DNA of 45,234 bases, from positions 1 through 45,234 of IMG/VR virus record IMGVR_UViG_3300050343_000131; one strand, written 5' to 3'. A program made the position numbers and the translations under genes. Positions 1,892 through 45,234 of the stretch are shown in pieces (position 1 is the stretch's first letter; every line of letters starts with the position of its first letter). Origin of the DNA: a virus. Below the pieces are notes generated by a model. It had not been told where the DNA came from, did no database searches, and saw only the letters and a list, made by a program, of their open reading frames with translations.

Positions 1892-2266
1892 ATGGCTAAT
1901 GTAACCGCCAAAAGTGTAATTGTAGCCGGCATAGAAGCCGGTAAATCTGTTAAATTTATTCTTGGACAAGTGGCAAAGAAATGCCCAGGATCTAAAGCGG
2001 ACGCTTCTCACGTTCGTTTTTATGCAAATGCTCTTGTTAAAGCTGAGAAGCTGAAAACTAGTGTAGCTGCTGAAAAATATGGATGCGGGGCCCGTGGTAG
2101 AAAAGCAGAAGGAGCATCTATTGTAAAAAAGCCCGCAAGCAAAAAGCCATCAGTAAAGAAGAAAGTAGTCCAAAAGAAAGGCGCATCGAAAAAATCAGGC
2201 GGGAACGCCGAGAAAAACGCGCCACGAAAGGCCTCAAAGAAGCGAAAAGCTACGTCAAAGAATTAG
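1892..2266 (+). CDS. Histone-H1-like basic protein, short form
   Basis: This 124-residue protein has a folded N-terminal part (about 1-55), with the same PGSK/HVRFY module as the preceding gene. A KYGCGARGRK linker follows, then a low-complexity Lys/Ala/Ser/Pro tail (about 79-124) resembling bacterial H1-like tails. The tail suggests non-specific DNA binding or condensation, which is inferred from composition. At 2125-2131 the frame carries A AAA AAG, a canonical -1 slippery heptamer. The -1 frame stays open to 2496 and encodes a folded-looking C-terminal part, so this product may be the short form of a longer protein, or the gene may carry a 1-nt sequencing deletion. Confidence 0.75.
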   Translation: MANVTAKSVIVAGIEAGKSVKFILGQVAKKCPGSKADASHVRFYANALVKAEKLKTSVAAEKYGCGARGRKAEGASIVKKPASKKPSVKKKVVQKKGASKKSGGNAEKNAPRKASKKRKATSKN

Positions 2267-2496
2267 TAAACAAGAATAATGTTTATTATCAACGCGAAGC
2301 TAGAGAAGGCGATGCACATTTAGTGTGCATCGTTTACTCGCCGGACAAAGCGGAAGATGCTTCTATAGTTCTGAAAACGGTTGAGATAGTGGATATGCTA
2401 GCATTTCCTAAGAACAGGTTAACAACGACTACTACAGGTACTAAGTTTAGAAGGCTATTGAAGAAATTAGTTAAAAATCATTTTATGAGAGGTTAA
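2125..2496 (+). CDS. -1 frame extension of the H1-like protein
   Basis: This open frame has no ATG, GTG or TTG start before its middle, yet it reads as real protein. It has a very basic helix (RRIEKIRRERREKRATKG) and then about 70 ordinary residues with AKSYVKELVNKNNVYYQ and EDASIVLKTVEIVDML. It ends 1 bp before the next gene, as expected for packed phage genes. Without it, 2267-2493 would be an unexplained gap. It is reached from the 1892 gene by a -1 shift at A AAA AAG (2125-2131), giving a fusion of about 200 residues. A GTG near 2322 is a poor alternative start. Confidence 0.6.
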   Translation, partial: KKARKQKAISKEESSPKERRIEKIRRERREKRATKGLKEAKSYVKELVNKNNVYYQREAREGDAHLVCIVYSPDKAEDASIVLKTVEIVDMLAFPKNRLTTTTTGTKFRRLLKKLVKNHFMRG

Positions 2497-2497
2497 T

Positions 2498-3310
2498 GTG
2501 TCTGAAGATAATCGGGAATACGATCAAACGCAACTAAAACTAGCACAATTCAAGTATCAACCACACAAAGACTATCTTGGGCATATCTTCAGATGGGGTT
2601 TTGCGTCTAAGTTTGTTAACCAGAAGACGTCAGTACTAGATGTTGGCTGCGGTCAAGAGATGCCATTCGCTAGATCTTTAGGAGGGGCAAATCCGAATTC
2701 AGTACCGAGTCGGTATTTAGGCGTAGATCTTAATGGTATTAAAACTCTGGTTAATAGAAAGAACTTTGAAGTATGGGACGAATTTAATTTCGTAGAAGAC
2801 TGGGAATGTATATTAGCTGAAGGACATAAACCATTTGACGTCATTGTTAACTTCGAAGTGTTCGAACATATGAAGATGGGTCATGGTCGTAAACTACTAA
2901 GCGCGATGCGTGAACTATTAGCCCGCGATGGTGTTCTTATATTCAGTACTCCTATATATTGCTCTACATACAAGCAGGCTAGAAACCATATTAACGAGCT
3001 TACGAAGGCTGAGATTGAAGAAGAAATTCAAAAGGCCGGATTGAAGATCATTAAACAGTACGGCACATTCGCTAATATCAATGACATTAAGAAAGTCGCA
3101 TCAAAAGAAGATCTTGATTCACATAAAGCTATGTCCGAGTTTTATGGTAATGAAATACTTGGATGTTACCTCAGCCCTAAGTATCCTGAAGCATCCCGCA
3201 ATATAACGCATATCTGCGTACGTAAAAAAGATAAACGCAAAGCTATGAAATTAAAGCCATCTATTGTAAAATTCGAAGGTGAAAAAGTCGGTAAGGCAAG
3301 GAATAAATAA
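2498..3310 (+). CDS. Class I SAM-dependent methyltransferase
   Basis: This 270-residue protein has a Rossmann methyltransferase core: motif I VLDVGCG at residues 46-52, an acidic strand end GVDLN at about 75-79, and a post-I strand with FEVFEHM at 119-125. The substrate cannot be read from the sequence. It has no DPPY or PC catalytic motif of classical DNA base methylases. Its place directly upstream of a MazG-like/kinase fusion, a ThyA-family enzyme and dCMP deaminase makes nucleotide or DNA hypermodification one possibility; capsule or small-molecule methylation is another. The start is GTG after AGAGG. Its stop overlaps the next ATG (TAATG), so the genes are translationally coupled. Confidence 0.85.
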   Translation: MSEDNREYDQTQLKLAQFKYQPHKDYLGHIFRWGFASKFVNQKTSVLDVGCGQEMPFARSLGGANPNSVPSRYLGVDLNGIKTLVNRKNFEVWDEFNFVEDWECILAEGHKPFDVIVNFEVFEHMKMGHGRKLLSAMRELLARDGVLIFSTPIYCSTYKQARNHINELTKAEIEEEIQKAGLKIIKQYGTFANINDIKKVASKEDLDSHKAMSEFYGNEILGCYLSPKYPEASRNITHICVRKKDKRKAMKLKPSIVKFEGEKVGKARNK

Positions 3311-4308
3311 TGTTTGATTTAATAAGATTAATGCATCAAAGATTTGGGTTTGCGTATGAAGGAGAACCTAGAGTTCTACCTGACGATGAATTCGAATTCA
3401 GAATGAAAGCATTTCAAGAAGAGATAGACGAATATAAAGAAGCTAGATCTAATGGCGATTTAGAAGGACAGCTAGATGCACTATTAGACCTAACTGTCTT
3501 TGTTATGGGCGCAGCTGAGCAACATGGGTTTGAATACAACCAAGGAATGATTAGAGTCATGTCCGCCAATATGCAAAAGCAAGTAGTTGCATCAGCTGAA
3601 GAGTCTAAACGCGGACATAAGTTTGACCTTAAAAAGCCTCCTGAATGGAGAGAACCATACTTAACCGATCTAATTAATCCGCCTAATTTTTATAGAGGCG
3701 TAATTCTATTAGAAGGTCCTGACGCTACAGGTAAAACGACTTTAGCTAACTACTTAGTAGACAATCATAATGCTCTTTATATTCATTCCACGTGGTCAGA
3801 AGATCTAGAAACAAGAATGACTCAGTACCTAGAACATAGTTTACAAATCGCAGGATCTGTTTCTCGCAGACAGCTAGTAGTCTTAGATAGAAATTGGCTA
3901 TCAGAGTTAGTATATACTGACGTATTTAGAAAAGATGTAGGACGAGCAGAATGGCATATGCGTATGCATACACTGTTTATAAGCGCTCTTCAGGGATTAT
4001 GTATATATTGTTTACCTTCTAACCCGAAGCAGTATATGGACCATTTTGCAGATATGGTAGAAGACCCTGACCGCAAAGAAATGTATTCGAATATGGCCGA
4101 TGTATACAATGCGTATTTAGCGCTATGGGAAGGGTTAGAATTTGATTATACCTTTAAAGGGTCGCGTGAATACATAGGCAAGATATTCGAAAATGGAGGA
4201 TTAAACCAGAGTCCGCATTTTATTAGATATGATTTTAATAACGAAGGACAAGACTTAAAATCATTTTTTGAAAGTCTGCCTATGAATCAAGAAAAGGATA
4301 TACATTAA
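3310..4308 (+). CDS. MazG-like pyrophosphohydrolase fused to a dNMP kinase-like domain
   Basis: This is a two-domain enzyme of 332 residues. Residues about 1-75 resemble all-alpha NTP pyrophosphatases (MazG/dCTPase/dUTPase superfamily), with the metal-binding acidic patterns QEEIDEY (36-42) and DALLDL (56-61). Residues about 130-300 are a P-loop nucleoside monophosphate kinase: GPDATGKT at 136-143 and a DR-x-x-LSELVY lid or substrate helix near 193-202, as in thymidylate and deoxynucleoside kinases. It would hydrolyse an unwanted dNTP to dNMP and phosphorylate a dNMP. In T4 these jobs belong to dCTPase and gp1, in the same hydroxymethyl-dC pathway. Specificity is inferred from context only. 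Confidence 0.85.
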   Translation: MFDLIRLMHQRFGFAYEGEPRVLPDDEFEFRMKAFQEEIDEYKEARSNGDLEGQLDALLDLTVFVMGAAEQHGFEYNQGMIRVMSANMQKQVVASAEESKRGHKFDLKKPPEWREPYLTDLINPPNFYRGVILLEGPDATGKTTLANYLVDNHNALYIHSTWSEDLETRMTQYLEHSLQIAGSVSRRQLVVLDRNWLSELVYTDVFRKDVGRAEWHMRMHTLFISALQGLCIYCLPSNPKQYMDHFADMVEDPDRKEMYSNMADVYNAYLALWEGLEFDYTFKGSREYIGKIFENGGLNQSPHFIRYDFNNEGQDLKSFFESLPMNQEKDIH

Positions 4309-4310
4309 TC

Positions 4311-5120
4311 ATGCTTATAAATCAAGAATGGAATACGCTATTAGGCGATATAATATTAATGGGAAGCGACGTAACGTGTCGCGGCTTTGAAACAAAAGAA
4401 TTAATCGCAAATAGCACACGTATAGATATGTCTTGTCCAATATTAACTGTTCCGCAAAGGAAAATCAGTCCAAGATTTTTAGCCGGAGAAGCGTATTGGA
4501 TACTTAGTGGCAGTAATCGCGTGTCCGATATTTCTAAATACTTGCCTGGTATAGCTAAGTATAGCGATAATGGCTTAACTTTTAGAGGGGCGTATGGTCC
4601 AAAAGTCATGGAACAATTGGATTATATGGTGCATGCGCTGCGTCATGACGCGGAATCACGTCAAGCGGTATTAACTATATGGCGTGAAAATCCTATGCCA
4701 TCAAAAGATATACCCTGTACAGTATCGCTTCAGTGGGTAATTAGAGATAACAAACTTTGCTGTATAGCCAATATGCGTTCATCTGATGCCTGGATGGGTT
4801 GGGTTTATGATGTATTTAATTTTTCTATGATATCGGCTTGGATTGCTATATACTTGCGCCAGCATGAATTAAAAAATCTAGAATTAGGAACGCTATATTT
4901 AAATGCTGGATCGCAGCATATCTATAAACATAATTCTTCAGACGCAATAAAATTAGTAAATAATTTTAAACCTAACTCTATATGTAGACCTATAGAGTTA
5001 GAGCGTTATTGTCTGGGTCCAGATGAATTGCTTCTCGATCTAAAAGCTGCAGCAGATAACGAGTGGAAAGCTTGTACGCCGTTTATGGAACAACTGAGGA
5101 CGCTGAATAATGAGACTTAA
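4311..5120 (+). CDS. Thymidylate-synthase-family enzyme, probable dCMP hydroxymethylase
   Basis: This 269-residue ThyA-fold protein has the catalytic Cys136 in DIPCTVSLQW, phosphate-binding Arg in SRQAV (116-120), a Glu60 region and RSSDAWMGWVYD at 156-167. In thymidylate synthase the last motif reads GxPFN, where Asn recognises dUMP. Here Asp167 takes that place. In T4 gp42 the matching Asp selects dCMP, so this is more likely a dCMP hydroxymethylase or methylase than thymidylate synthase. Many phage genes of this type are annotated simply as thymidylate synthase. It overlaps the dCMP deaminase gene by 11 bp and follows the MazG/kinase gene by 2 bp. Confidence 0.85.
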   Translation: MLINQEWNTLLGDIILMGSDVTCRGFETKELIANSTRIDMSCPILTVPQRKISPRFLAGEAYWILSGSNRVSDISKYLPGIAKYSDNGLTFRGAYGPKVMEQLDYMVHALRHDAESRQAVLTIWRENPMPSKDIPCTVSLQWVIRDNKLCCIANMRSSDAWMGWVYDVFNFSMISAWIAIYLRQHELKNLELGTLYLNAGSQHIYKHNSSDAIKLVNNFKPNSICRPIELERYCLGPDELLLDLKAAADNEWKACTPFMEQLRTLNNET

Positions 5121-5601
5121 TAACGACGAATATTACTTGTCTATGGCAAGGTTAGTATCTACACGAGGTACGTGCATCCGACGTAAAGTCGGATGCGTTC
5201 TAGTGGATAGCAGTTTTCACGTTTTATCTACCGGATATAACGGCCCGCCTTCTGGAGTTCCGCATTGCAACGAATTAGGATCAAACTCTAAAAGAGACAC
5301 ATATCCTAATGCGTGTGAAGGAGCAAATTCACCGTCGGGAACAAGTTTAGATAAATGCGCGGCGGTACATGCCGAGCAGAACGCCCTACTTCAATGTCCT
5401 AATATACGTCATATTTCCACGGCGTATTGCACGACATCGTCGTGCGTGCATTGTATAAAATTATTAATGAATACATCGTGCCAAAGATTGGTATTTAGTG
5501 AAGAGTACTCTCATGGAGGAGAACCAATGAAACTTTGGTTGAGCACGGGACGTCAGTGGATACATTTGCCCCGCTATACTTCTAACCCTAATTACGCCTA
5601 G
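5110..5601 (+). CDS. Deoxycytidylate (dCMP) deaminase
   Basis: This 163-residue zinc enzyme of the ComE/dCMP deaminase family converts dCMP to dUMP. Visible are the HAE motif at 87-89 (zinc ligand and catalytic Glu) and SSCVHC at 110-115 with the two zinc cysteines. Further upstream is a GYNGPPSGVPHC substrate loop (42-53), where extra zinc ligands often occur. It is the last gene of the rightward unit and is followed by a terminator. With the ThyA-like enzyme upstream it sets the balance between dCMP and dUMP. Confidence 0.93.
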   Translation: MRLNNDEYYLSMARLVSTRGTCIRRKVGCVLVDSSFHVLSTGYNGPPSGVPHCNELGSNSKRDTYPNACEGANSPSGTSLDKCAAVHAEQNALLQCPNIRHISTAYCTTSSCVHCIKLLMNTSCQRLVFSEEYSHGGEPMKLWLSTGRQWIHLPRYTSNPNYA

Positions 5602-5614
5602 CGCGTTCTCTGAG

Positions 5615-5653
5615 CTAAGCCCTTAATAGACTATGTCTATAGGCCTAGTTTTT
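5615..5653 (+). terminator. Rho-independent terminator of the rightward unit
   Basis: The stem has an inner ATAGAC/GTCTAT pair (5626-5631 with 5635-5640, loop TAT) and outer pairs CTAAGCC with GGCCTAG containing one mismatch. TTTTT at 5649-5653 follows. It lies between the convergent rightward and leftward transcription units. Confidence 0.7.
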
Positions 5654-5671
5654 AAATAGGGTTAACCTTAT

Positions 5672-6082
5672 TTAGCTAGATTCTGGTATAGGATACGCCT
5701 CTCGGCTTAAATGCCAATGAGGTTTATCCGGTTTCTTCCAGAAGCCGCCCCACCTAATATCAATCCCCAGTTCACTCGCTGCCCTAAATCCAGCCTTAGC
5801 CAATCTTTGGTATGCATAATCTGAATGATCTATTTTGCCATTTACGTAGGGATATAGGTCTACCGCGAAGGCTAAATTATCGATAGGATCTGGAAGATGT
5901 CTTGAGTCCATTGTCCATGACGTTCCATCTTGTACGTTCTGCCGCTGCTCTTCTACAGTTCTTCTACCATCTACGCACGCTATATCAACCGCGCTGAGCG
6001 CGAGCGTAAGCTCAGCCCATTCTCTTAATAGAAGCTTAACTCCAGATAAATTTTCCTTGGAACTAGATCCATATTCATACAT
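5672..6082 (-). CDS. M15 (VanY/L-Ala-D-Glu type) peptidoglycan endopeptidase, endolysin
   Basis: This is the cell wall peptidase for lysis. With the ATG at 6082 it has 136 residues and begins MYEYGSSSKENLSGVK, the usual start of phage M15 endolysins. A longer open frame to 6232 runs deep into the lipase gene and adds unrelated sequence, so I chose the short start. Zinc ligands fit SRHLPD (His62), AFAVDLYP (Asp75) and KPHWHLS (His122/His124), the M15 pattern. No signal peptide or membrane segment is seen, so export would need a holin. It overlaps the lipase stop by 8 bp. Confidence 0.88.
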   Translation of the reverse strand: MYEYGSSSKENLSGVKLLLREWAELTLALSAVDIACVDGRRTVEEQRQNVQDGTSWTMDSRHLPDPIDNLAFAVDLYPYVNGKIDHSDYAYQRLAKAGFRAASELGIDIRWGGFWKKPDKPHWHLSREAYPIPESS

Positions 6083-6695
6083 CAAAAACTTTCCCATAGT
6101 GCTCGAGCAGGTGATTGTTTGCGATAGAATATCCGTTAACTTTGTGAGAAGTGTATTGTTCATTAACATGTCTGTACCCCCACCATCTGGACGGAAAATC
6201 GGGTATTGGGTCTCCTTTATTTGAATACTCAATGGTATGTACTCCTGTTTTAATATAGCGTTTTAAAGAACCTGCGGTTAATGTTCGCGGTGCCCCAAAA
6301 GTAATAACCTGTCTAACGTTAAACCCTTCAGCACGTAAAATAGCAGCGGCATTAATAGCCAATACTCCGCCAAGGCTATGGCCAGTTAGGTCAATAGGAA
6401 CATCGCGATCTAACATCCCATATAATCCTTTATCTACTACACCTCTTGCACCTTTTAAGAAGCCTGCATGAGACCATCCTACGCGTTTATCGTACCACGG
6501 AATAAACCGTATATCGCGCAACACGTCCCATACACCTCCTCCTGAGATAAGATCACCTCCTTCTGTTCCTCTAAAAGCCACTACTTGAATATCATCTAAC
6601 GTTGATACTAGGCATTCAACTTCGTTAACTTTACAGCTTACTTCGTGATAACTTTTAGAGGCTAATTTAAACAATTCAGAATGATTATCAATCAT
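6075..6695 (-). CDS. Lipase class 3-like alpha/beta hydrolase
   Basis: This 206-residue protein has the nucleophile elbow GHSLGG (Ser107), an FRGT segment (41-44) forming the oxyanion region, GDPIP with Asp162, and His195 or His199 near the C-terminus. This is a full catalytic triad in the order of fungal-type class 3 lipases. No signal peptide is seen. It lies between a lipoprotein and the endolysin, so a part in lysis (attack on membrane lipid or outer membrane) is likely but inferred. Mycobacteriophage LysB is a functional parallel from another fold family. It overlaps the endolysin start. Confidence 0.85.
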   Translation of the reverse strand: MIDNHSELFKLASKSYHEVSCKVNEVECLVSTLDDIQVVAFRGTEGGDLISGGGVWDVLRDIRFIPWYDKRVGWSHAGFLKGARGVVDKGLYGMLDRDVPIDLTGHSLGGVLAINAAAILRAEGFNVRQVITFGAPRTLTAGSLKRYIKTGVHTIEYSNKGDPIPDFPSRWWGYRHVNEQYTSHKVNGYSIANNHLLEHYGKVFDV

Positions 6696-29443: not shown

Positions 29444-29833
29444 CTAATAATCAATATCGAACCGTTTGCGAATAAGGCGTATATGCTGTCTAGTCAGTGG
29501 TTTATCAGAAACGGGAGCTTTAGTTTCTATCTTCTCTACTGCTTTACGTTTAGGATGCATATACTCTAACAGCTGTTTTGCTGCATCTTGGCTTTTAGCC
29601 ATTTCTACTATAGAACCACGGTAATCATCTTTAATAAGTTCTACTAGATCTAACCAGTCAAACTCATCTGGCGGTTCATTTCCATACTCTTCTTCAAGGG
29701 CTTTAATTTTTAAGTAGACTAATGAGACTCTTCGCGGATCTGTACCGCCCATGATTTTTGTCAGAAATTCGACAGGGTCAGGTATTTTCAGTTCTTCGCA
29801 GAGTGCCCGTACTTTTGACTCGGCTGATTCCAT
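29444..29833 (-). CDS. terS: Small terminase subunit (probable)
   Basis: With the ATG at 29833 the protein has 129 residues: MESAESKVRALCEEL, a helical middle, KRKAVEKIETK and a basic C-terminus (RQHIRLIRKRFDIDY). An upstream extension lies inside the promoter and terminator region and is rejected. The position just before terL, the helical nature and the basic tail support TerS, but no sharp motif is visible. A strong promoter places the transcription start at or just before the ATG, so the leader would be almost absent. Confidence 0.72.
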   Translation of the reverse strand: MESAESKVRALCEELKIPDPVEFLTKIMGGTDPRRVSLVYLKIKALEEEYGNEPPDEFDWLDLVELIKDDYRGSIVEMAKSQDAAKQLLEYMHPKRKAVEKIETKAPVSDKPLTRQHIRLIRKRFDIDY

Positions 29834-29840
29834 GGAAAGG

Positions 29841-29870
29841 ATTATAGTCACAGTTTGGAAGGAATGTAAA
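29841..29870 (-). promoter_or_regulatory. Strong late-operon promoter
   Basis: On the minus strand TTTACA (29870-29865), an 18-nt spacer and TATAAT (29846-29841, perfect -10). It drives the whole late unit beginning with the small terminase gene. The predicted start point is about 29834-29835, one or two bases before the ATG. Confidence 0.75.
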
Positions 29871-29877
29871 CAGGCAT

Positions 29878-29917
29878 AAAAAAGACCCCCTATACGGGAT
29901 CGGGCGTATAGGGGGTC
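29878..29917 (-). terminator. Strong rho-independent terminator before the late operon
   Basis: A perfect 13-bp stem GACCCCCTATACG/CGTATAGGGGGTC (29884-29896 with 29905-29917) has an 8-nt loop. On the minus strand it is followed by TTTTTT (29883-29878). It ends leftward early transcription and insulates the late promoter just downstream. Confidence 0.93.
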
Positions 29918-29967
29918 AATAGGTTTTACCAAGGGGAGAGATAAATAGACTATTATCCATCATCTCT

Positions 29968-30382: not shown

Positions 30383-30517
30383 TTAAATTTTAGCTTTACG
30401 TATTGGCTTTACATATGGTACCTGTTGTATCTTACCTCCTCGCGCTAAATGTGCTTTAATATCGTTATTAAGTTCTGTTCTAATTTGGGATTTAGATTTC
30501 TCTTTAATAGCAGTCAT
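30383..30517 (-). CDS. 44-residue basic protein with LARGGKI motif
   Basis: The protein reads MTAIKEKSKSQIRTEL, then NNDIKAHLARGGKIQQVP and a basic tail VKPIRKAKI. The pattern DIxxxLxxGGxIxxxP recurs in many tiny phage and bacterial proteins sometimes called transcriptional regulators. It is the first gene of the leftward early unit. The stop is at 30383; the ribosome site is weak (AAAGAAA). Confidence 0.65.
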   Translation of the reverse strand: MTAIKEKSKSQIRTELNNDIKAHLARGGKIQQVPYVKPIRKAKI

Positions 30518-30551: not shown

Positions 30552-30581
30552 ATTCTAAACTTTACCAATGAAGAAGTACAC
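30552..30581 (-). promoter_or_regulatory. Leftward early promoter
   Basis: On the minus strand TGTACT, a 17-nt spacer and TAGAAT (30557-30552). It is the mirror image of the rightward promoter at 30937-30965. It drives the two small leftward genes. Confidence 0.65.
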
Positions 30582-30603
30582 TACTTCAACCAATAAAGAA
30601 AAG

Positions 30604-30646
30604 GACGACGCAAAGTTAAGAACGGGTTCAGGGCTGGCCGAACCCT
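30604..30646 (-). repeat. Conserved upstream element, copy A (inverted)
   Basis: Read on the minus strand it contains AGGGTTCGGCC, then CCTGAAC, then GTTCTTAACTTTGCGTCG, about 43 bp nearly identical to copy B. It ends 26 bp upstream of the TGTACT box of the leftward promoter. Confidence 0.85.
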
Positions 30647-30862
30647 ACAATCGCATATAAATCAATAGCTTAGAAATAAATGTTCGAGAGTTCTTAACTA
30701 CTATCTACCGTATAATAAAACTGATAACTCTCTTATTCTCTTCTTTATTGGTTACCAATGTTAAAGCATCAGTTTTATATGTATTCTCTTTTATTACCAG
30801 TATTAGTTAGTTAAGAACTCTAGTAAATAGTTAAATAAAGCATAGTAATATCAATAGCTTAG

Positions 30863-30904
30863 AGGGTTCGGCCGGCCTGAACAGGTTCTTAACTTTGCGT
30901 CGGC
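30863..30904 (+). repeat. Conserved upstream element, copy B
   Basis: This contains AGGGTTCGGCCGG, then CCTGAAC, then GTTCTTAACTTTGCGTCGGC. It shares about 31 bp (from GAACA to CTAA) with copy C with two mismatches, and about 43 bp with inverted copy A. It lies about 35 bp upstream of the rightward promoter. Confidence 0.88.
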
Positions 30905-30936
30905 CCTAATTAAACCAAAATTAAAGCCATATATAG

Positions 30937-30965
30937 TGTACTTATGCCCTAATTAAGTTTAGAAT
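30937..30965 (+). promoter_or_regulatory. Rightward early promoter
   Basis: TGTACT (30937-30942), a 17-nt spacer and TAGAAT (30960-30965). The start point would lie near 30972. It therefore excludes an ATG at 30964 as the start of the first gene and supports 31003, which has AAGGA in front. Confidence 0.65.
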
Positions 30966-32443: not shown

Positions 32444-32665
32444 ATGAAATCAAATCAGGCGATAGTAATAAACGATAGCACAGGCGAATGGGTACTAACG
32501 CGAAATATTACGCGTGTATTAAAAGCTCAATTCAATACCAGTGTAAATCAATCGGCAATATACTCAATCAGCTCGGGAGACAATATAACCGAACATGTTC
32601 TTAACTTTGCGTCGGCTCTAAATAAGTTTAAAAATAAGTCAACAAAAAGTGTACATAGAATATAA
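32444..32665 (+). CDS. Hypothetical protein containing control element C
   Basis: This 73-residue protein has GEWVLTRNITRVLKAQFNTS near the start. The 3' third overlaps the repeated control element at 32591-32621 (there encoding VLNFASALNK), and its last codons overlap the next promoter. Overlap of coding and control sequence is unusual here. The function is unknown. Confidence 0.6.
   Translation: MKSNQAIVINDSTGEWVLTRNITRVLKAQFNTSVNQSAIYSISSGDNITEHVLNFASALNKFKNKSTKSVHRI
32591..32621 (+). repeat. Conserved upstream element, copy C
   Basis: This is a 31-bp match to copy B (from GAACA through GTTCTTAACTTTGCGTCGGC to CTAA) with two mismatches. It lies 36 bp upstream of the promoter at 32650, nearly the same distance as copy B from its promoter. 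Confidence 0.9.
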
Positions 32666-32677
32666 AGTATATATAAT
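32650..32677 (+). promoter_or_regulatory. Early promoter of the TGTACA family
   Basis: TGTACA (32650-32655), a 16-nt spacer and TATAAT (32672-32677). It lies downstream of control element C and upstream of the repeated leader at 32691. Confidence 0.65.
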
Positions 32678-32724: not shown

Positions 32725-32765
32725 ACGTTCAAAAAAGATAATAGTGTGTGTGTGGGCCATTGATC

Positions 32766-33113
32766 ATGCGTCGTGATTGGTTCGGCTACAACAAGCCTGG
32801 ATGTTTTAAATATTTTAGAACTCTTATAAAACAAGACCACATGGTTATAGGTCACATATTTGGCCGTAAGCATGTATCCAGCCCAGAAGAGTGGAGAATA
32901 ACGTTATCCGGCCCAGAAGAGTGGAGAATAACGTTATCCGGCCCAGAAGAGTGGAGAATAACGTTAGCGGTTAACTGTCCGGAATTTGAATTCTCTAAAA
33001 AATGGAGAATTATTAGAGTACGTAAACAATTTAGATCAGAAGAGCATGCGCGCCGTTGGATGAAAGAAAATTGGGATTATCTTCTACAGATATATACATT
33101 TTATCAAAAGTAA
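32766..33113 (+). CDS. Hypothetical protein with a 10-residue tandem repeat
   Basis: From the ATG at 32766 the protein has 115 residues (a GTG at 32748 is an alternative). The middle has three copies of GPEEWRITLS-like decapeptides, encoded by a 30-bp tandem repeat. Its ends are basic (RRDWFGYNKPGCFKYF; FRSEEHARRWMKENW). The repeat flank EFSKKWRIIRV resembles a degenerate fourth unit. No family is recognised. It is bounded by the direct leader repeats at 32691 and 33109. Confidence 0.6.
   Translation: MRRDWFGYNKPGCFKYFRTLIKQDHMVIGHIFGRKHVSSPEEWRITLSGPEEWRITLSGPEEWRITLAVNCPEFEFSKKWRIIRVRKQFRSEEHARRWMKENWDYLLQIYTFYQK
32881..32970 (+). repeat. 30-bp tandem repeat, three copies
   Basis: Two exact copies (32881-32910, 32911-32940) and a third with two changes at its end (32941-32970). 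The unit is a multiple of three, so copy-number change would keep the frame. Confidence 0.95.
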
Positions 33114-33560: not shown

Positions 33561-33723
33561 GTATGAAAAAGCCGCGGCAGAATTAGTAGACAGCGGACTT
33601 GTAATCGTATTAAACCCAACATTATGGGTCGTATCATACTTATTTGTGAGCGCGATTAGTATTTTTTGTACAGCCTACATTTGTAGAAGATACTATAGAA
33701 AACTTTATAGGAGAGACCCATGA
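33553..33723 (+). CDS. Small membrane protein with basic C-terminus
   Basis: The 56 residues start MNEYEKAAAELVDSG and have one transmembrane helix (TLWVVSYLFVSAISIFCTAY), followed by a basic end CRRYYRKLYRRDP. The frame from 33502 would extend into the previous gene and is rejected. An N-out/C-in topology follows from the positive-inside rule. The function is unknown. Confidence 0.62.
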   Translation: MNEYEKAAAELVDSGLVIVLNPTLWVVSYLFVSAISIFCTAYICRRYYRKLYRRDP

Positions 33724-34034
33724 GTGAATTTAAGAGAGAAGAAATCCGATTAACAAACACTTGGAGAGCAGCGATGAGCGACCATCATTGTTATAAACCT
33801 GATAATCATAGTGATAATTTTACAGAATTTGAAATAGCCCTAAAACAAAAGCTGAAGCGTATACGCAAGAAAAATAATTGCTCTCGTAAACTACTAGCAA
33901 AAATGTTAGGCGTAAATTTGTATAAAATAGATAGAATAGAAGCTACAAATAAAAGCGGAACACATGTTCTTGTCGAAGATATACATGGGTATAGCCAAGC
34001 ATTTGATTTAGATATGGGCATATTCAGTGAATAA
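33720..34034 (+). CDS. Helix-turn-helix (Xre-like) regulator
   Basis: This 104-residue protein has a C-terminal HTH: LKQKLKRIRKKNNCSRKLLA followed by KMLGVNLYKIDRIEATN, at about 41-80. It would bind DNA, and its location just before the promoter at 34053 suggests control of nearby genes. The start overlaps the previous stop (ATGA). Confidence 0.75.
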   Translation: MSEFKREEIRLTNTWRAAMSDHHCYKPDNHSDNFTEFEIALKQKLKRIRKKNNCSRKLLAKMLGVNLYKIDRIEATNKSGTHVLVEDIHGYSQAFDLDMGIFSE

Positions 34035-34531: not shown

Positions 34532-34618
34532 ATGAAGAAAGTGTTTTGGAATGTGTGGAACTTCCTCTGGTGCATCTTACTTGTGTGGATGATACATACC
34601 CCCCCGTTAAGCGGCTAG
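34532..34618 (+). CDS. 28-residue hydrophobic membrane peptide
   Basis: The peptide MKKVFWNVWNFLWCILLVWM is followed by IHTPPLSG. It has a basic start, one Trp-rich hydrophobic helix and a short tail. AGAGAG lies 6 bases before the ATG, a good ribosome site. It overlaps the frame upstream of the 34639 gene and is the more likely product of this stretch. The function is unknown; it has the size of a small phage membrane toxin or exclusion peptide. Confidence 0.55.
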   Translation: MKKVFWNVWNFLWCILLVWMIHTPPLSG

Positions 34619-34638
34619 TAACACGAATGGAGAATGAG

Positions 34639-35241
34639 ATGGACGTACAAGAGTTTTTGAAGACTAACGCGAATGTAGTTCCGAGCGACTTAGAAACGGA
34701 CAAAGGGACGGATTCTCAGCACTACGTTTCAAAGATAGACGGTTCATATATTGGGTTAGTTGGATTCTCAGAAGAAGACAATGAAAGGCATTTTAAATTC
34801 ATGATAGATCACGGTATATCGCAACTACAGAATGGAACAGGACACACGGTGGCGAATATGGGGTTCAGCGAGAAAGAGCAGAAGTGGTACGGCTGGTCTC
34901 ATAGGGCAATATTCGGGTTTAAGATTGGCTCGGAGGTAAAGCGTGGAGATTGCGCCTACATGCCTGTAGACGAAGAAGATTTTGTTGCAACCATGGTGCG
35001 ATTTTGGGCCGACAAACATCACCTGGATATAGAGTATCGAATAGGGGCTAACGTTCTTGGAGAACGCGGTGTTTTCATTGATTGGGTTTATTCAGAGACA
35101 GTGCCTTATGAAAATCTGCGCGGAACTAACGGGGGATCTTTCCAAATATTTCCCGAGAATTTCGGTAAAGGCGAATGGAAAGCTGAATCCTTAGAAGATG
35201 CCAAGCAAATGGCCGCTGATTTTGCCGAAAGTGTTAGCTAA
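34639..35241 (+). CDS. Conserved phage protein of unknown function (YGWSHRAI motif)
   Basis: The start MDVQEFLKTNANVVPSDLE has GGAG 6-7 bases upstream; earlier in-frame ATGs (34546, 34627) lack this. The 200 residues include MGFSEKEQKWYGWSHRAIFG followed by FKIGSEVKRGDCAYMP, a motif I have seen in many unannotated phage proteins. The C-terminus has GEWKAESLEDAKQMAADFAE. Its function is unknown. Confidence 0.72.
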   Translation: MDVQEFLKTNANVVPSDLETDKGTDSQHYVSKIDGSYIGLVGFSEEDNERHFKFMIDHGISQLQNGTGHTVANMGFSEKEQKWYGWSHRAIFGFKIGSEVKRGDCAYMPVDEEDFVATMVRFWADKHHLDIEYRIGANVLGERGVFIDWVYSETVPYENLRGTNGGSFQIFPENFGKGEWKAESLEDAKQMAADFAESVS

Positions 35242-36824: not shown

Positions 36825-39224
36825 ATGCCGTCATTAAATAAAAAAGTTACAATAACTTTAGGCACGTCGATATATAAGCCTGAAGATATAATACAAAAAA
36901 CTTTATCAACTACCCAACTATTCAAGCGGTTATCTGTACCTAATTTACAAGAGAAAAAAGAAGGTAAGTACTTTGTATTCGCGTCTTTCAATAAGAAGAG
37001 CCGTAACGCCGCTAACATAGATAAATATTTTGGCGCGACAATAGACTTAGACGATACTCCTTTAACAGTAAAAGAAATACGCCGTAAATTTAAACGTTAT
37101 AATTACTGCATATACAGTACCTTTCAGCATAAGCTTCCTAGCAAAGGCGATAGGTATAGATTAGTCCTTCCATACAAAGCTCCCGTAGATCCTGTGACGC
37201 ATGTTGAAACCATGCTATACTTAATGAGTCTATTAGGTAAAGACAATGTTGACCTGTCGTCTAAAGCGTTATCACGGGCTATGTACTTGCCTGCTATTAG
37301 TTCTAAACGTAAAAAGAAATTTGAGTACTACAAACACGTAGACGGATTATTCTTCAATCCCATGTCCGCTAATACTCGGGATAAAATCGCAGCGTTACGA
37401 TTTGAGCAAGGGGAAACTGAATCGGCCGTGAGCGAAGAGCCCATGGACATGAATAAGAAAGTTGACGAAGGTGAAAGAAATGATTCGCTAGCCAGAGCTA
37501 TAGGTAAGTTCATAAAAACAGGCGTGGCTAATGACGAGATAATGCCGCTTGCCCAAGCGTGGAACGACACACATCTATACCCTCCCCTATCAACTAAAGA
37601 CGTTAAGACTGTTGTTGAGTCTATTATTAAGTCCCACGCTAGAAATCATAATGATTTATCTTGGGGTTATGACGAAATAATAAACCGCATAAAGAAGGCC
37701 AAAGAAATAACACAAGATTACGATCATATATTAGACATGATTGTAATGGCCAAGACTAAGAATAAGTTTAAACCTTCTCAAGTGTCGTTACTAGTATTAG
37801 AGCTTAGTAAAAAATCTAAAGTCGGTCAGCGCATAATCAAAGAAGAGATAACTTCTAAAGAGTTAGAATTAGCCGGTAGATTAGAAAGCGCGGCTGACGG
37901 CTCATTCGAATCTACAACTAACGCTTTACGTGATGATTTTAAGAACTGGGTATATGTAGCAACAGATGACAGAGTATATAATTTCAGAACAGGTGAATAC
38001 TATAAAAGAGAAGCGTTCTCCGCGATGTTCGCTAATCCTAACGTAGAAGGTTCGTTGTTTACGTTAATTATGAAATTTAATTTAATGAAAAAAGTGTCCA
38101 GATTAGAATTTGATCCGGCTAAAGAAGAGGTGTATATGAATGGCGGGGTAAAATACGCTAATACATATATACACCCAGAAATATTTCCTATCCCTGGTGA
38201 TATTTCTATGGTGTTAGACCATTTTAAATACTTAATACCCAACAAGCGAGAATGCAGTATAATTTTAGACTTTATTGCGCATATGGTTCAACACCCGGGA
38301 ATAAAAATACGCTGGATGCCCGTAATTAAAGGGGGTAAAGGTATAGGTAAAACAATTATTGCTGAAAAAGTTATAATGCCTTTAATAGGATTTACTAACT
38401 TCGGTAAAGTAAATAACGAGCTAATCAAATCAGATTTTAATGCATGGCAATTAGATAAACAAGTAATAATATTTGAAGAATTAAACATAGGCGCAAATCA
38501 AAAAGAAAAAGAACAGTTAACAGATAAGCTTAAATCATTTATTACAGATAACCTAATGATGGCGCATAGAAAAGGACTAGATCCATATGACACTATCAAT
38601 AAATGTAATTCATTAGGATTTACTAACGCTGAAGATGCTATTATTATTACGCCGGATGAGCGTAGATTTTGCATGATTAGATCTGAAGCTAGACCGCGCA
38701 AACCTATGTATTACCAAACTTTGGCTGATTTTACAGATAAAAATTTAGCTGAAATATATCATTTCTTTATTGAGCGGGACTTATCTGGTTTTTCTCCACT
38801 AGTTGCTCCTGACACAGCTTATACTCGTGAGATTAAAAACCTATCTATGAGCTGGCCTGGTTCTATTATTCAAGGCTGGTGCTCAGATAATAAAAACCAA
38901 TTCAGTAAATATGGATGCATCACGTATACAAATATAGTTAACGGAATACGCGCTGAGTCGTCAGGGCGGTATCGATCTATAGCTGATGATCTTCAATCCC
39001 CTGGTTCTGCTCAATCTCGTAAACTACATCACTCGCTTCGCAATCTAGGATTTGTTAAGTGGGTTAATCCAGAAGCTAAAGATGGTAGGATGAGAGTCAA
39101 CGGTCGATTAGAACACATATGGGTAATGCCGGGGTGGGTGGATAGTCTACAAGACGCTTCTAAAAAGGTTATCATGAAGCGTATAAAGAAAATTAAGGTA
39201 ATTGATGAAAACTGGGCAGATTAA
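36825..39224 (+). CDS. Primase-helicase (AEP-like primase, PriCT, D5/DUF5906-type SF3 helicase)
   Basis: This 799-residue replication protein has a primase-like N-terminal part with the acidic ATIDLDDTPL and CIYSTFQHKLPSKGDRYRLV (about 67-120), as in archaeo-eukaryotic-type primases. A helical linker ERNDSLARAIGKFIKTGVAN (PriCT-like) lies near 210-260. The C-terminal helicase has Walker A GGKGIGKT at about 503-510, Walker B QVIIFEELN near 546-554, and KGLDPYDTINKC further on. It would prime and unwind phage DNA for the family A polymerase. Its stop lies within the next gene. Confidence 0.88.
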   Translation: MPSLNKKVTITLGTSIYKPEDIIQKTLSTTQLFKRLSVPNLQEKKEGKYFVFASFNKKSRNAANIDKYFGATIDLDDTPLTVKEIRRKFKRYNYCIYSTFQHKLPSKGDRYRLVLPYKAPVDPVTHVETMLYLMSLLGKDNVDLSSKALSRAMYLPAISSKRKKKFEYYKHVDGLFFNPMSANTRDKIAALRFEQGETESAVSEEPMDMNKKVDEGERNDSLARAIGKFIKTGVANDEIMPLAQAWNDTHLYPPLSTKDVKTVVESIIKSHARNHNDLSWGYDEIINRIKKAKEITQDYDHILDMIVMAKTKNKFKPSQVSLLVLELSKKSKVGQRIIKEEITSKELELAGRLESAADGSFESTTNALRDDFKNWVYVATDDRVYNFRTGEYYKREAFSAMFANPNVEGSLFTLIMKFNLMKKVSRLEFDPAKEEVYMNGGVKYANTYIHPEIFPIPGDISMVLDHFKYLIPNKRECSIILDFIAHMVQHPGIKIRWMPVIKGGKGIGKTIIAEKVIMPLIGFTNFGKVNNELIKSDFNAWQLDKQVIIFEELNIGANQKEKEQLTDKLKSFITDNLMMAHRKGLDPYDTINKCNSLGFTNAEDAIIITPDERRFCMIRSEARPRKPMYYQTLADFTDKNLAEIYHFFIERDLSGFSPLVAPDTAYTREIKNLSMSWPGSIIQGWCSDNKNQFSKYGCITYTNIVNGIRAESSGRYRSIADDLQSPGSAQSRKLHHSLRNLGFVKWVNPEAKDGRMRVNGRLEHIWVMPGWVDSLQDASKKVIMKRIKKIKVIDENWAD

Positions 39225-40216: not shown

Positions 40217-41485
40217 ATGCGACATTCGAGATTAGCAGCATCAGCCGCAGGCCGCTGGGTTAGATGCCCAGGGTCAATCGCGTATATAGAATATCTACGC
40301 AAAGAAAAGAAAATACCAGACGATAGATTCTCTGGTGACGCTGCTAAATTAGGAACAGCCGTTCACGCTATCCTTGAGTATTGTATAATAAATTCTGTTC
40401 ATCCAGAAACACTAACTAAAAAAGTAATTAAAAAAATAGTTAATTCAGATAAAGAAACGACCGGAATAAAAATTACAGAAAAAGAAATCGCTGGTGCGTC
40501 AGTAGGTTATAATCGTGTCGAGTTAATACGCCCAGAATTTGACGAAATTATAGCAGAACATAAATACAACCTTTCGTTTGTCTATAATATGGATGTTGGC
40601 GGTACGTGTGATATATCTGGATTTAAAGAAAATGGTCTACTAGGTATTGAAGACTATAAAAACGGTAGAGCAGTAGTAGAAGCCGTTGATAATTATCAAA
40701 CAAAAATATATGCCCTCGGCGCATATCATAACGAAAACGAATGGTATAATTTTCAAAACGTGCGCAGCGCGATAATTCAACCCAACGCATCACACCGCGA
40801 TGGTAGAATACGGGTTGACGAATACACTATTGACGATCTTAGACGCTGGGAAGAAAAGAAATTAATTCCAGCCATAGACTTAATAGCTAAAGATTCAGCC
40901 ACACTTATTCCCGGCCCTGAGCAATGCTTATGGTGCGACGGCCGACATCTATGTGAAGCTAATGCTAAACAATCACTCCAATTAGCTCAAATAGATTTTG
41001 AGCATTTAGCAGAACCTAAAGCTGAATTACCTACTCCAAACGTATTAACACGAAAGCAACTTGCTTTCGTGTTAGATAACTCAGATCGAATTACTAAATT
41101 TCTAAGCATGTGTAGAGAGTATGCGGCAACAGTACTAGAAGAAACAGACGAACGCATTGGTGATTATCACCTAGAAGATAAAATAGGCAACAGACGCTTA
41201 ATTGATACCGATGAACTAAATCGTATTATTAGAAAAAATAAATTAACTATAAAAGAATTGAAGCGCGTACCAGAACCCTCCATGATGAGTGTGACTCAGA
41301 TAGAAGCCCACTTAAAGCAAAAAAAATGGAAGCCAGAGCGTGTAAAAGAATTTATGGATAAGATTACTACTCGACCTAAAACGGGAAAGCAGTTAATCAA
41401 ATCTGTAGATACCGCTGAGAACGACTTCAGCAAAAAAACGAAGAAACCCAAAACTCGGAAAACCCGAAGAAACAGGAGGCCATAA
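40217..41485 (+). CDS. DUF2800 (Cas4/RecB-like) nuclease
   Basis: This 422-residue protein begins with RLAASAAGRWVRCPGS, with Cys17 likely the first iron-sulphur ligand, and GTAVHAILEYCI. The nuclease core has GTCDISGF and LLGIEDYKNGRAVVEA (Asp and Lys of a PD-(D/E)xK site). It closes with QCLWCDGRHLC, the three further cysteines for a 4Fe-4S cluster. A basic tail (KKTKKPKTRKTRRNRR) follows. It probably acts in recombination or end processing. It overlaps the DUF2815 gene by 1 bp, a pairing typical of phages. Confidence 0.88.
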   Translation: MRHSRLAASAAGRWVRCPGSIAYIEYLRKEKKIPDDRFSGDAAKLGTAVHAILEYCIINSVHPETLTKKVIKKIVNSDKETTGIKITEKEIAGASVGYNRVELIRPEFDEIIAEHKYNLSFVYNMDVGGTCDISGFKENGLLGIEDYKNGRAVVEAVDNYQTKIYALGAYHNENEWYNFQNVRSAIIQPNASHRDGRIRVDEYTIDDLRRWEEKKLIPAIDLIAKDSATLIPGPEQCLWCDGRHLCEANAKQSLQLAQIDFEHLAEPKAELPTPNVLTRKQLAFVLDNSDRITKFLSMCREYAATVLEETDERIGDYHLEDKIGNRRLIDTDELNRIIRKNKLTIKELKRVPEPSMMSVTQIEAHLKQKKWKPERVKEFMDKITTRPKTGKQLIKSVDTAENDFSKKTKKPKTRKTRRNRRP

Positions 41486-44892: not shown

Positions 44893-45172
44893 TGAAGCTC
44901 CAATTGAAAAACATCTAGTGACCTCTGTGCGAAAGCGCGGAGGTCTTTGTTTGAAGCTTATAATGATGGGAAAACGGAACTTCCCAGATCGCACATGCCT
45001 TATGCCTGGCGGTAAAATCTTTTTTGTTGAATGCAAAGCCGCAAAGAAAGACGCTAGGAAATCTCAAGGATGGTTCCACAGACTTTTACTTAGACTAGAA
45101 TTTAGGATATATGTTGCTAAAACGAAAGAAGAAGTTGACGAAATCCTTAGCAAAGAGATGGCGTCCCCGTGA
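44885..45172 (+). CDS. VRR-NUC domain nuclease
   Basis: The 95 residues start (TTG) MASEAPIEKHLVTSVRKRGG and carry NFPDRTCLMPGGKIFFVECK, the PD-(E)xK-like core of the VRR-NUC family, then KSQGWFHRLL. Such stand-alone phage VRR-NUCs act on branched or flap DNA. It sits just before the SNF2-like helicase, the usual pairing. Confidence 0.88.
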   Translation: MASEAPIEKHLVTSVRKRGGLCLKLIMMGKRNFPDRTCLMPGGKIFFVECKAAKKDARKSQGWFHRLLLRLEFRIYVAKTKEEVDEILSKEMASP

Positions 45173-45176
45173 ATAC

Positions 45177-45234
45177 ATGAAGTTATGCGTCGATGCCTGT
45201 ATTAAGTATCGTTACATAGCTTTATTCTTAGATC
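45177..45234 (+). CDS. SNF2-like helicase, N-terminal part (continues at base 1)
   Basis: This is the start of the helicase whose remainder opens the window. From the ATG at 45177 it reads MKLCVDACIKYRYIALFLD and runs off the end with one base left over. Joining that base to the first two bases of the window gives Pro, and the reading continues as GLGKT, so the junction rebuilds LDPGLGKT, the typical Walker A of phage SNF2-like helicases. It lies 4 bp after the VRR-NUC gene. The frame stays open upstream without ATG, so a TTG start near 45132 is possible. Confidence 0.85.
   Translation, partial: MKLCVDACIKYRYIALFLD

Follow-up and report, generated by a model that had tools for sequence, protein, structure and literature searches.

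Extended stem-loop origins with a primase-SF3 replication protein are known for plasmid pRN1 and have been proposed for Bordetella phage BIP-1 (PMC4234260), so this kind of origin is already known. In these systems (PMC4234260), as at the locus described here, an extended imperfect inverted repeat in noncoding DNA keeps its structure as its sequence changes. Their genomes encode a primase-SF3 helicase replication protein, for which the window has a candidate.

The window, which is the whole stretch of DNA analysed, is a 45.2-kb phage record (45,234 nucleotides). Its late genes run leftward from ~29.9 kb, its early and replication genes start at 30.96 kb and run rightward across the joined ends to 5.6 kb, and the 414 bases at 30552-30965 lie between the two blocks. 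To our knowledge, few origins have been mapped in virulent phages other than the model ones. In phage lambda cosB, repeated protein boxes flank an IHF site near terS. We propose, with a probability of roughly 0.55, that the dyad at 30552-30965 is a bidirectional origin served by a PriCT_1/SF3 primase-helicase and fused with divergent early promoters.

Anatomy of the dyad and its genome setting

A sequence-only reading had described inverted pairs nested symmetrically around a centre at 30552-30965. Such pairs are present: the midpoint 30754±8 is common to six exact inverted arm pairs, a number reached in 0 of 1000 shuffles. The dinucleotide-corrected test that it had proposed gave a clear result. 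The self-reverse-complement local alignment of the dyad scored 287, compared with 107±12 (maximum 151) in 300 dinucleotide shuffles. The runner-up 440-bp place scored 154, which makes this dyad the strongest in the genome. As a single strand it folds end to end at -74.4 kcal/mol versus -31.3±3.8 kcal/mol (z = -11.4). It is thus an extended inverted repeat in noncoding DNA, as are the primase-SF3 stem-loop origins.

From outside to centre, each half starts with a predicted outward promoter, followed by an outer box with GAACnnGTTC, a GGCC-rich second arm and an IHF-consensus site; then come an inner box and, leading to the central palindrome, a short arm rich in AT. The features are as follows.

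30550-30583/30934-30967: outer inverted pair, 79% match
30552-30580, minus strand: predicted left outward sigma70-type promoter, TGTACT-17-TAGAAT, -35 at 30580-30575 and -10 at 30557-30552
30603-30632, minus strand: left outer arm, box GTTCTTAAC at 30615-30623 (minus strand) plus GAACnnGTTC, 90% inverted match to 30876-30905
30632-30646: left second arm GGCTGGCCGAACCCT, 93% inverted match to 30863-30877
30656-30855: candidate unwinding element spanning both IHF sites, with the lowest stability of any 200 bp in the genome
30660-30672, plus strand: left IHF-consensus site AATCAATAGCTTA, a perfect WATCAANNNNTTR
30680-30700/30808-30828: inner-box inverted pair, 86% match
30690-30698, plus strand: left inner box GTTCTTAAC, centre 75 bp from the outer-box centre
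30715-30725: ATAAAACTGAT, 11/11 (100%) inverted match to 30768-30778
30747-30759: central palindrome ATTGGTTACCAAT, near the common midpoint of the six exact arm pairs
30768-30778: ATCAGTTTTAT, inverted partner of 30715-30725
30810-30818, minus strand: right inner box GTTCTTAAC, exact copy
30849-30861, plus strand: right IHF-consensus site TATCAATAGCTTA, perfect consensus, matched in position and orientation by TATCAATAGGTTA in the nearest relative
30863-30877: right second arm AGGGTTCGGCCGGCC, inverted partner of 30632-30646
30876-30905, plus strand: right outer arm, outer box GTTCTTAAC at 30885-30893, then TTTGCGTCGG
30937-30965, plus strand: predicted right outward promoter before the early operon, TGTACT-17-TAGAAT
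32591-32677, plus strand: single third copy of outer box and promoter (predicted), box GTTCTTAACTTTGCGTCG from 32597 and GTGTAC...TATAAT at 32649-32677
36825-39224, plus strand: primase-helicase, the proposed initiator, with PriCT_1 and DUF5906/VapE-like domains, SF3-type

The 45 kb contain five exact copies of GTTCTTAAC, four in the dyad and one at 32597. The dyad copies (30615, 30690, 30810 and 30885) alternate in orientation (-,+,-,+) and are not directly repeated, and an iteron origin was therefore rejected. Outer and inner boxes are 75 bp apart in each half and the inner boxes are 120 bp apart. Two or more perfect IHF sites arose in only 0.1% of shuffled dyads (P = 0.001). The nearest-neighbour energy of 30656-30855 is -1.103 compared with a mean of -1.294.

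The mirror layout holds for the nested pairs but is not exact throughout. The two copies of the IHF-like ATCAATAGCTTAGA (30661, 30850) are in direct and not inverted orientation, the centre of the 30715/30768 pair is ~8 bp leftward of the common midpoint, and the DNA between box and promoter is unequal in length on the two sides.

Mirrored outward promoters with an equal 17-nt spacer had also been noticed from the sequence alone, and both indeed read TGTACT-17-TAGAAT. The pattern GTGTAC-N17..20-TAnAAT occurs exactly three times in the window (0.19 expected). The third occurrence belongs to the module at 32.6 kb, which is a 91% match over 32591-32625. The box centres lie at about -83, -83 and -74 from the three inferred starts, with about -83 for the right promoter, and the positions differ by about one helical turn. 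As sequence, the dyad has two outward promoters around common operators. Together with the lone third module, they place the same box at predicted early promoters too.

Across the two ends of the record (1-120 and 45172-45234), an SNF2-type helicase continues in frame through its P-loop. The genome is therefore probably complete, with circular permutation. The frame of this helicase shifts within the first 200 bases, near a C run, which is probably an assembly or sequencing error. Leftward of the dyad, the first gene of the leftward transcript is a 44-aa ORF (30383-30517, minus strand) that matches the SutA RNAP-binding domain (PF20661, E = 3.2e-9, 36.5 bits versus a cut-off of 29.3); its product may be a small phage factor that targets the host RNA polymerase. 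Farther on, a terminator-like hairpin with a 13-bp stem, present on both strands (29841-29917), is followed by a strong leftward promoter match, TTTACA-18-TATAAT. The leftward transcript from the dyad therefore probably ends ahead of terS. On the rightward side, the ORF at 32748-33113 carries tandem GPEEWRITLS repeats, and 34546-35241 (plus strand) is a strong match to Tad6, a type I Thoeris defence inhibitor (PF25188, E = 1.4e-40). Downstream of the third box and promoter copy, a 104-aa protein (33720-34034) has a weak HTH match (E about 0.01 in Pfam and 0.001 in PHROGs) and is a candidate regulator.

The primase-helicase matches the PDB primase entries 6k9c and 6k9e by sequence (E = 6e-8), and the 6k9c match lies in its SF3-type helicase part. 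We take 6k9c to be the entry of the NrS-1 phage primase-polymerase. PriCT_1, DUF5906 and VapE-like domains were found, whereas the catalytic AEP domain was not confirmed. Fold prediction was poor (mean pLDDT 38.8), and the strand/helix pattern at 701-767 gives only hints of a winged helix.

Relatives, distant phages and plasmids

No conserved DNA match was found in known phages. When the 15-base outer-arm pattern was searched in viral and bacterial collections, almost all matches were single and were taken as chance.

The nearest relative, L005 (TerL 82%), has its own dyad, which scored 325 compared with 120±13. Its box is GTTCATAAC instead of GTTCTTAAC, and the mirrored plan is kept. The box centres at 1203, 1279, 1357 and 1431 give outer-inner spacings of 76 and 74 bp, and IHF-like sites, one perfect and one with one mismatch, lie between the outer and inner boxes. 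The inner boxes are 78 bp apart versus 120 bp in the window, a difference of 42 bp or four helical turns. The outer arms of 59 nt are 90% complementary. Since spacing and IHF sites are kept with a changed box, the plan outlasts the sequence and both arms change together. We also considered a class-I-activator reading of the -83, -83 and -74 positions. It was rejected because these positions are not kept in L005, whose boxes are farther from the promoters than those of the window.

The plan persists more loosely in L006 (TerL 75%). Its nested dyad, with a 29-nt arm pair that is 97% complementary and a central palindrome, sits at the least stable 200 bp of L006. L008 (TerL 74%, primase 63%) has IHF-consensus sites and its least stable DNA at the same place, and the self-reverse-complement test detected no significant dyad in it. 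Just upstream of its terS, at ~5488-5545, L008 contains three tandem copies of a unit with ACCTAAGGTGCTTAGAA, possibly a packaging or operator site.

Pseudomonas phage KPP23 encodes a primase 36% identical to that of the window. Its nested dyad of ~560 bp (40287-40846) scored 270 compared with 118±16, covers the least stable 200 bp of KPP23 (40448) and lies in the gap between the co-directional ORF065 and ORF066. KPP23 (L343, L469) also has 17 copies of its own box, GTCCGGAC (1.6 expected), with many at early promoters and three in the large dyad. The early promoters with this box include a mirrored divergent pair at 36.5 kb that has the box TGTCCGGACA between -35 and -10.

Three phages with primases 25-27% identical to that of the window (G003, G007 and G008) have arrays of the related-looking motifs AAGTACAGA, AAGAACAGT and TAAGAAC. 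The arrays immediately follow the 3' end of the primase gene and coincide with the least stable 200 bp of each genome. In both G003 and G007, the next larger frames downstream of the array keep this direction. A second array of G003, upstream of terS, has nearly identical spacings (+23/24, +55, +8), and L005 also contains an 8-bp box doublet. No array was found in G020 (primase 35%).

We compared seven relatives (KPP23, G001, G002, G020, G003, G007 and G008) with six control phages. The primase-helicase and PolA were the only window proteins found in 7/7 relatives and 0/6 controls. The controls were drawn from capsid-based relatives, most of which carry a different TerL; most of the six share TerL, helicase, exonuclease and SSB homologues with the window. 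Eleven capsid-based relatives searched as whole records had no primase-helicase, and the six controls had no nested dyad of comparable size. The association of primase-helicase and array is a correlation within few lineages. Repeats also lie on the least stable DNA of some controls (e.g. c_G009). Their overlap with unstable DNA is thus not specific by itself, and noncoding AT-rich DNA is less stable in any case. One control, c_G017, was rejected as a nested-dyad case (z = 9.1), as its signal comes from a tandem array of 23 repeats. This array, at ~25801 of c_G017 (L467), repeats CTAACTTA/AAGTTAGC 23 times; c_G017 lacks the primase-helicase.

Five plasmid records carry a distant homologue of the primase-helicase, which from the gene lists may be their initiator. 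The three small ones, enterobacterial plasmids with a DUF5906 primase-helicase, were analysed. In all three, the least stable 200 bp are at or adjoin the 3' end of the primase-helicase gene.

L470: least stable 200 bp from 4411; primase-helicase gene 3075-4418, plus strand
L471: least stable 200 bp from 3084; primase-helicase gene 3647-6178, minus strand
L472: least stable 200 bp from 1864; primase-helicase gene 1994-3454, minus strand

Two of the three plasmids, L470 and L471, also follow this pattern in their repeat arrays. At the 3' end of the gene, the top array of L470 is ATAATCCCA (4469-4563, scoring 39 versus 7.6±3.3) and that of L471 is CCAAGTAC (3001-3331, 68 versus 11.6±4.5); a second repeat window of L471, near 1226, scored 65. 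The top window of L472 (551-900) is not at the gene 3' end and scored 25, with a shuffle maximum of 24. Its window at 1826 scored 24, among the next ranks, and a moderate dyad lies at 1701 (z = 6.1).

The proposed origin and its alternatives

From these features we infer how the proposed origin would work. A phage protein, most likely the primase-helicase, would bind the four GTTCTTAAC boxes. In each half, a bend made by host IHF between outer and inner box would bring these two boxes together, and two mirror-image half-complexes would open the AT-rich centre. Helicase and primase could then be loaded in both directions. From the two outward promoters, host RNA polymerase would begin early transcription leftward and rightward, coupled to initiation through occupancy of the outer boxes.

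That the strongest dyad of the genome stands on its least stable 200 bp counts for an origin. An origin served by the primase-helicase is also the simplest reading that accounts for the dyad core, the non-divergent dyad of KPP23, the 3' arrays and the plasmids. Against it count the position of the dyad, 6 kb upstream of the primase gene and not 3' of it; the regulator-like occurrence of the box at the lone 32.6-kb promoter and of GTCCGGAC at many KPP23 early promoters; and the relatives that do not conform, with L008 lacking a significant dyad, G020 lacking an array and L472 having its top repeats elsewhere.

GC skew, which had been proposed as a check, agrees with an origin but decides nothing. 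Its minimum is at ~30.5-31 kb, and gene direction switches at the same place. We therefore rejected it as origin evidence, as it is confounded with gene direction in the window and too weak in KPP23, where the third-position skew is similar on either side of the dyad (-0.147 versus -0.110).

The sequence-only reading had left three roles open. A replication origin and a two-way switch are both compatible with the data, and the comparative results favour an origin with outward early promoters. The data do not favour a new type of hairpin signal: arm identity falls to ~79% in places, relatives keep box spacing and not perfect pairing, and both predicted promoters point outward, so neither would transcribe the dyad.

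The main rival to an origin is purely transcriptional control, which we regard as possible but unlikely. Here the boxes would bind a phage regulator, and an IHF-looped complex at mirrored early promoters would set both operons together. The same hexamers at mirrored outward places, the third copy at 32.6 kb and the activator-like position of the boxes, upstream of -35 and in helical phase, are consistent with this, as are the mirrored TGTCCGGACA pair and the 17 GTCCGGAC boxes of KPP23. However, two promoters do not need the inner boxes, the palindrome and the AT-rich core, which lie 135-220 bp from the inferred starts. The large KPP23 dyad is between co-directional genes, and mirrored promoters alone are therefore not a sufficient explanation of such dyads. 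The arrays of G003, G007, G008 and two plasmids are 3' of the replication gene. In addition, no HTH or regulator gene was found adjoining the dyad, the weak HTH match at 33720-34034 being the only one.

We consider a packaging site (cos/pac) very improbable. The small terminase subunit would bind the boxes with an IHF bend, as in lambda cosB, and it fits that the dyad is ~0.7-0.9 kb upstream of terS (29444-29932), that IHF sites lie between repeated boxes and that dyads or arrays occur upstream of terS in L005, L006 and G003 as well. Packaging, however, is directional, whereas the dyad is a mirror image with exact arms. Moreover, the third box copy is at a promoter, a terminator-like hairpin and a promoter separate the dyad from terS, the KPP23 dyad is ~6 kb from terS, and the strongest arrays of G003, G007 and G008 adjoin the primase. 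The remaining alternative, that a single promoter-box module was duplicated in inverted orientation and left a remnant that is functionless as a dyad, is suggested by the third copy, which shows that the module can be copied, and by the long complementary outer arms of L005, but is highly improbable given that L005 kept the box-pair spacing while sequence turned over in both arms, that the central elements (inner boxes, palindrome and IHF sites) are paired too and that KPP23 has an independent dyad.

Comparison with known systems

If the dyad is an origin, mirrored boxes over the least stable DNA together with a DUF5906 primase-helicase would be a signature that locates the origins of a group of uncultured phages, as well as that of the isolated phage KPP23. 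Box and initiator would form two-part systems whose specificity has changed between close relatives, and replication and early transcription would be built on the same boxes. More tentatively, and with some doubt, these loci may represent a type of origin in which PriCT_1/SF3 primase-helicase boxes in a giant mirrored arrangement surround an unwinding core, IHF bends each half and the boxes also control early promoters. In such a type the boxes would turn over quickly and in both arms at once, and simpler 3' arrays would occur in some plasmids with a distant primase-helicase. Open-access literature searched for phage origins that combine nested inverted repeats with IHF yielded none under those words. 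As far as we found, a plan of mirrored boxes combined with IHF sites and promoters has not been described.

The pRN1 origin is ~100 nt long and directly 3' of the replication gene (PMC4234260), whereas the window dyad is 414 bp long and 6 kb upstream of the primase gene start (36825). No dyad is present 3' of the window's own primase gene (z = 1.6), and the window dyad is therefore not classed as a pRN1-type member. Unlike pRN1, it has IHF sites, discrete 9-bp boxes and two promoters.

The likeness to the NrS-1 primase-polymerase (PMC8718748, PMC7102993) is in the SF3-type helicase part, via 6k9c. NrS-1 recognises TTTGGTTA (PMC8718748, PMC7102993), and the dyad centre of the window has ATTGGTTA. 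We rejected this as an NrS-1 recognition sequence, since TTGGTTA is not enriched (6 versus 7.65 expected).

The 36.5-kb pair of KPP23 resembles the window, as sequence, in having two outward mirrored promoters with a phage box. It differs in that its box is between -35 and -10, no IHF site was found and the DNA is not AT-rich. The large KPP23 dyad (40.3-40.8 kb) is separate from this promoter pair, whereas the window has both together. As in lambda cosB, boxes flank an IHF site near terS in the window. cosB, however, is one-directional and has neither promoters nor a mirrored second half, and the window dyad has these.
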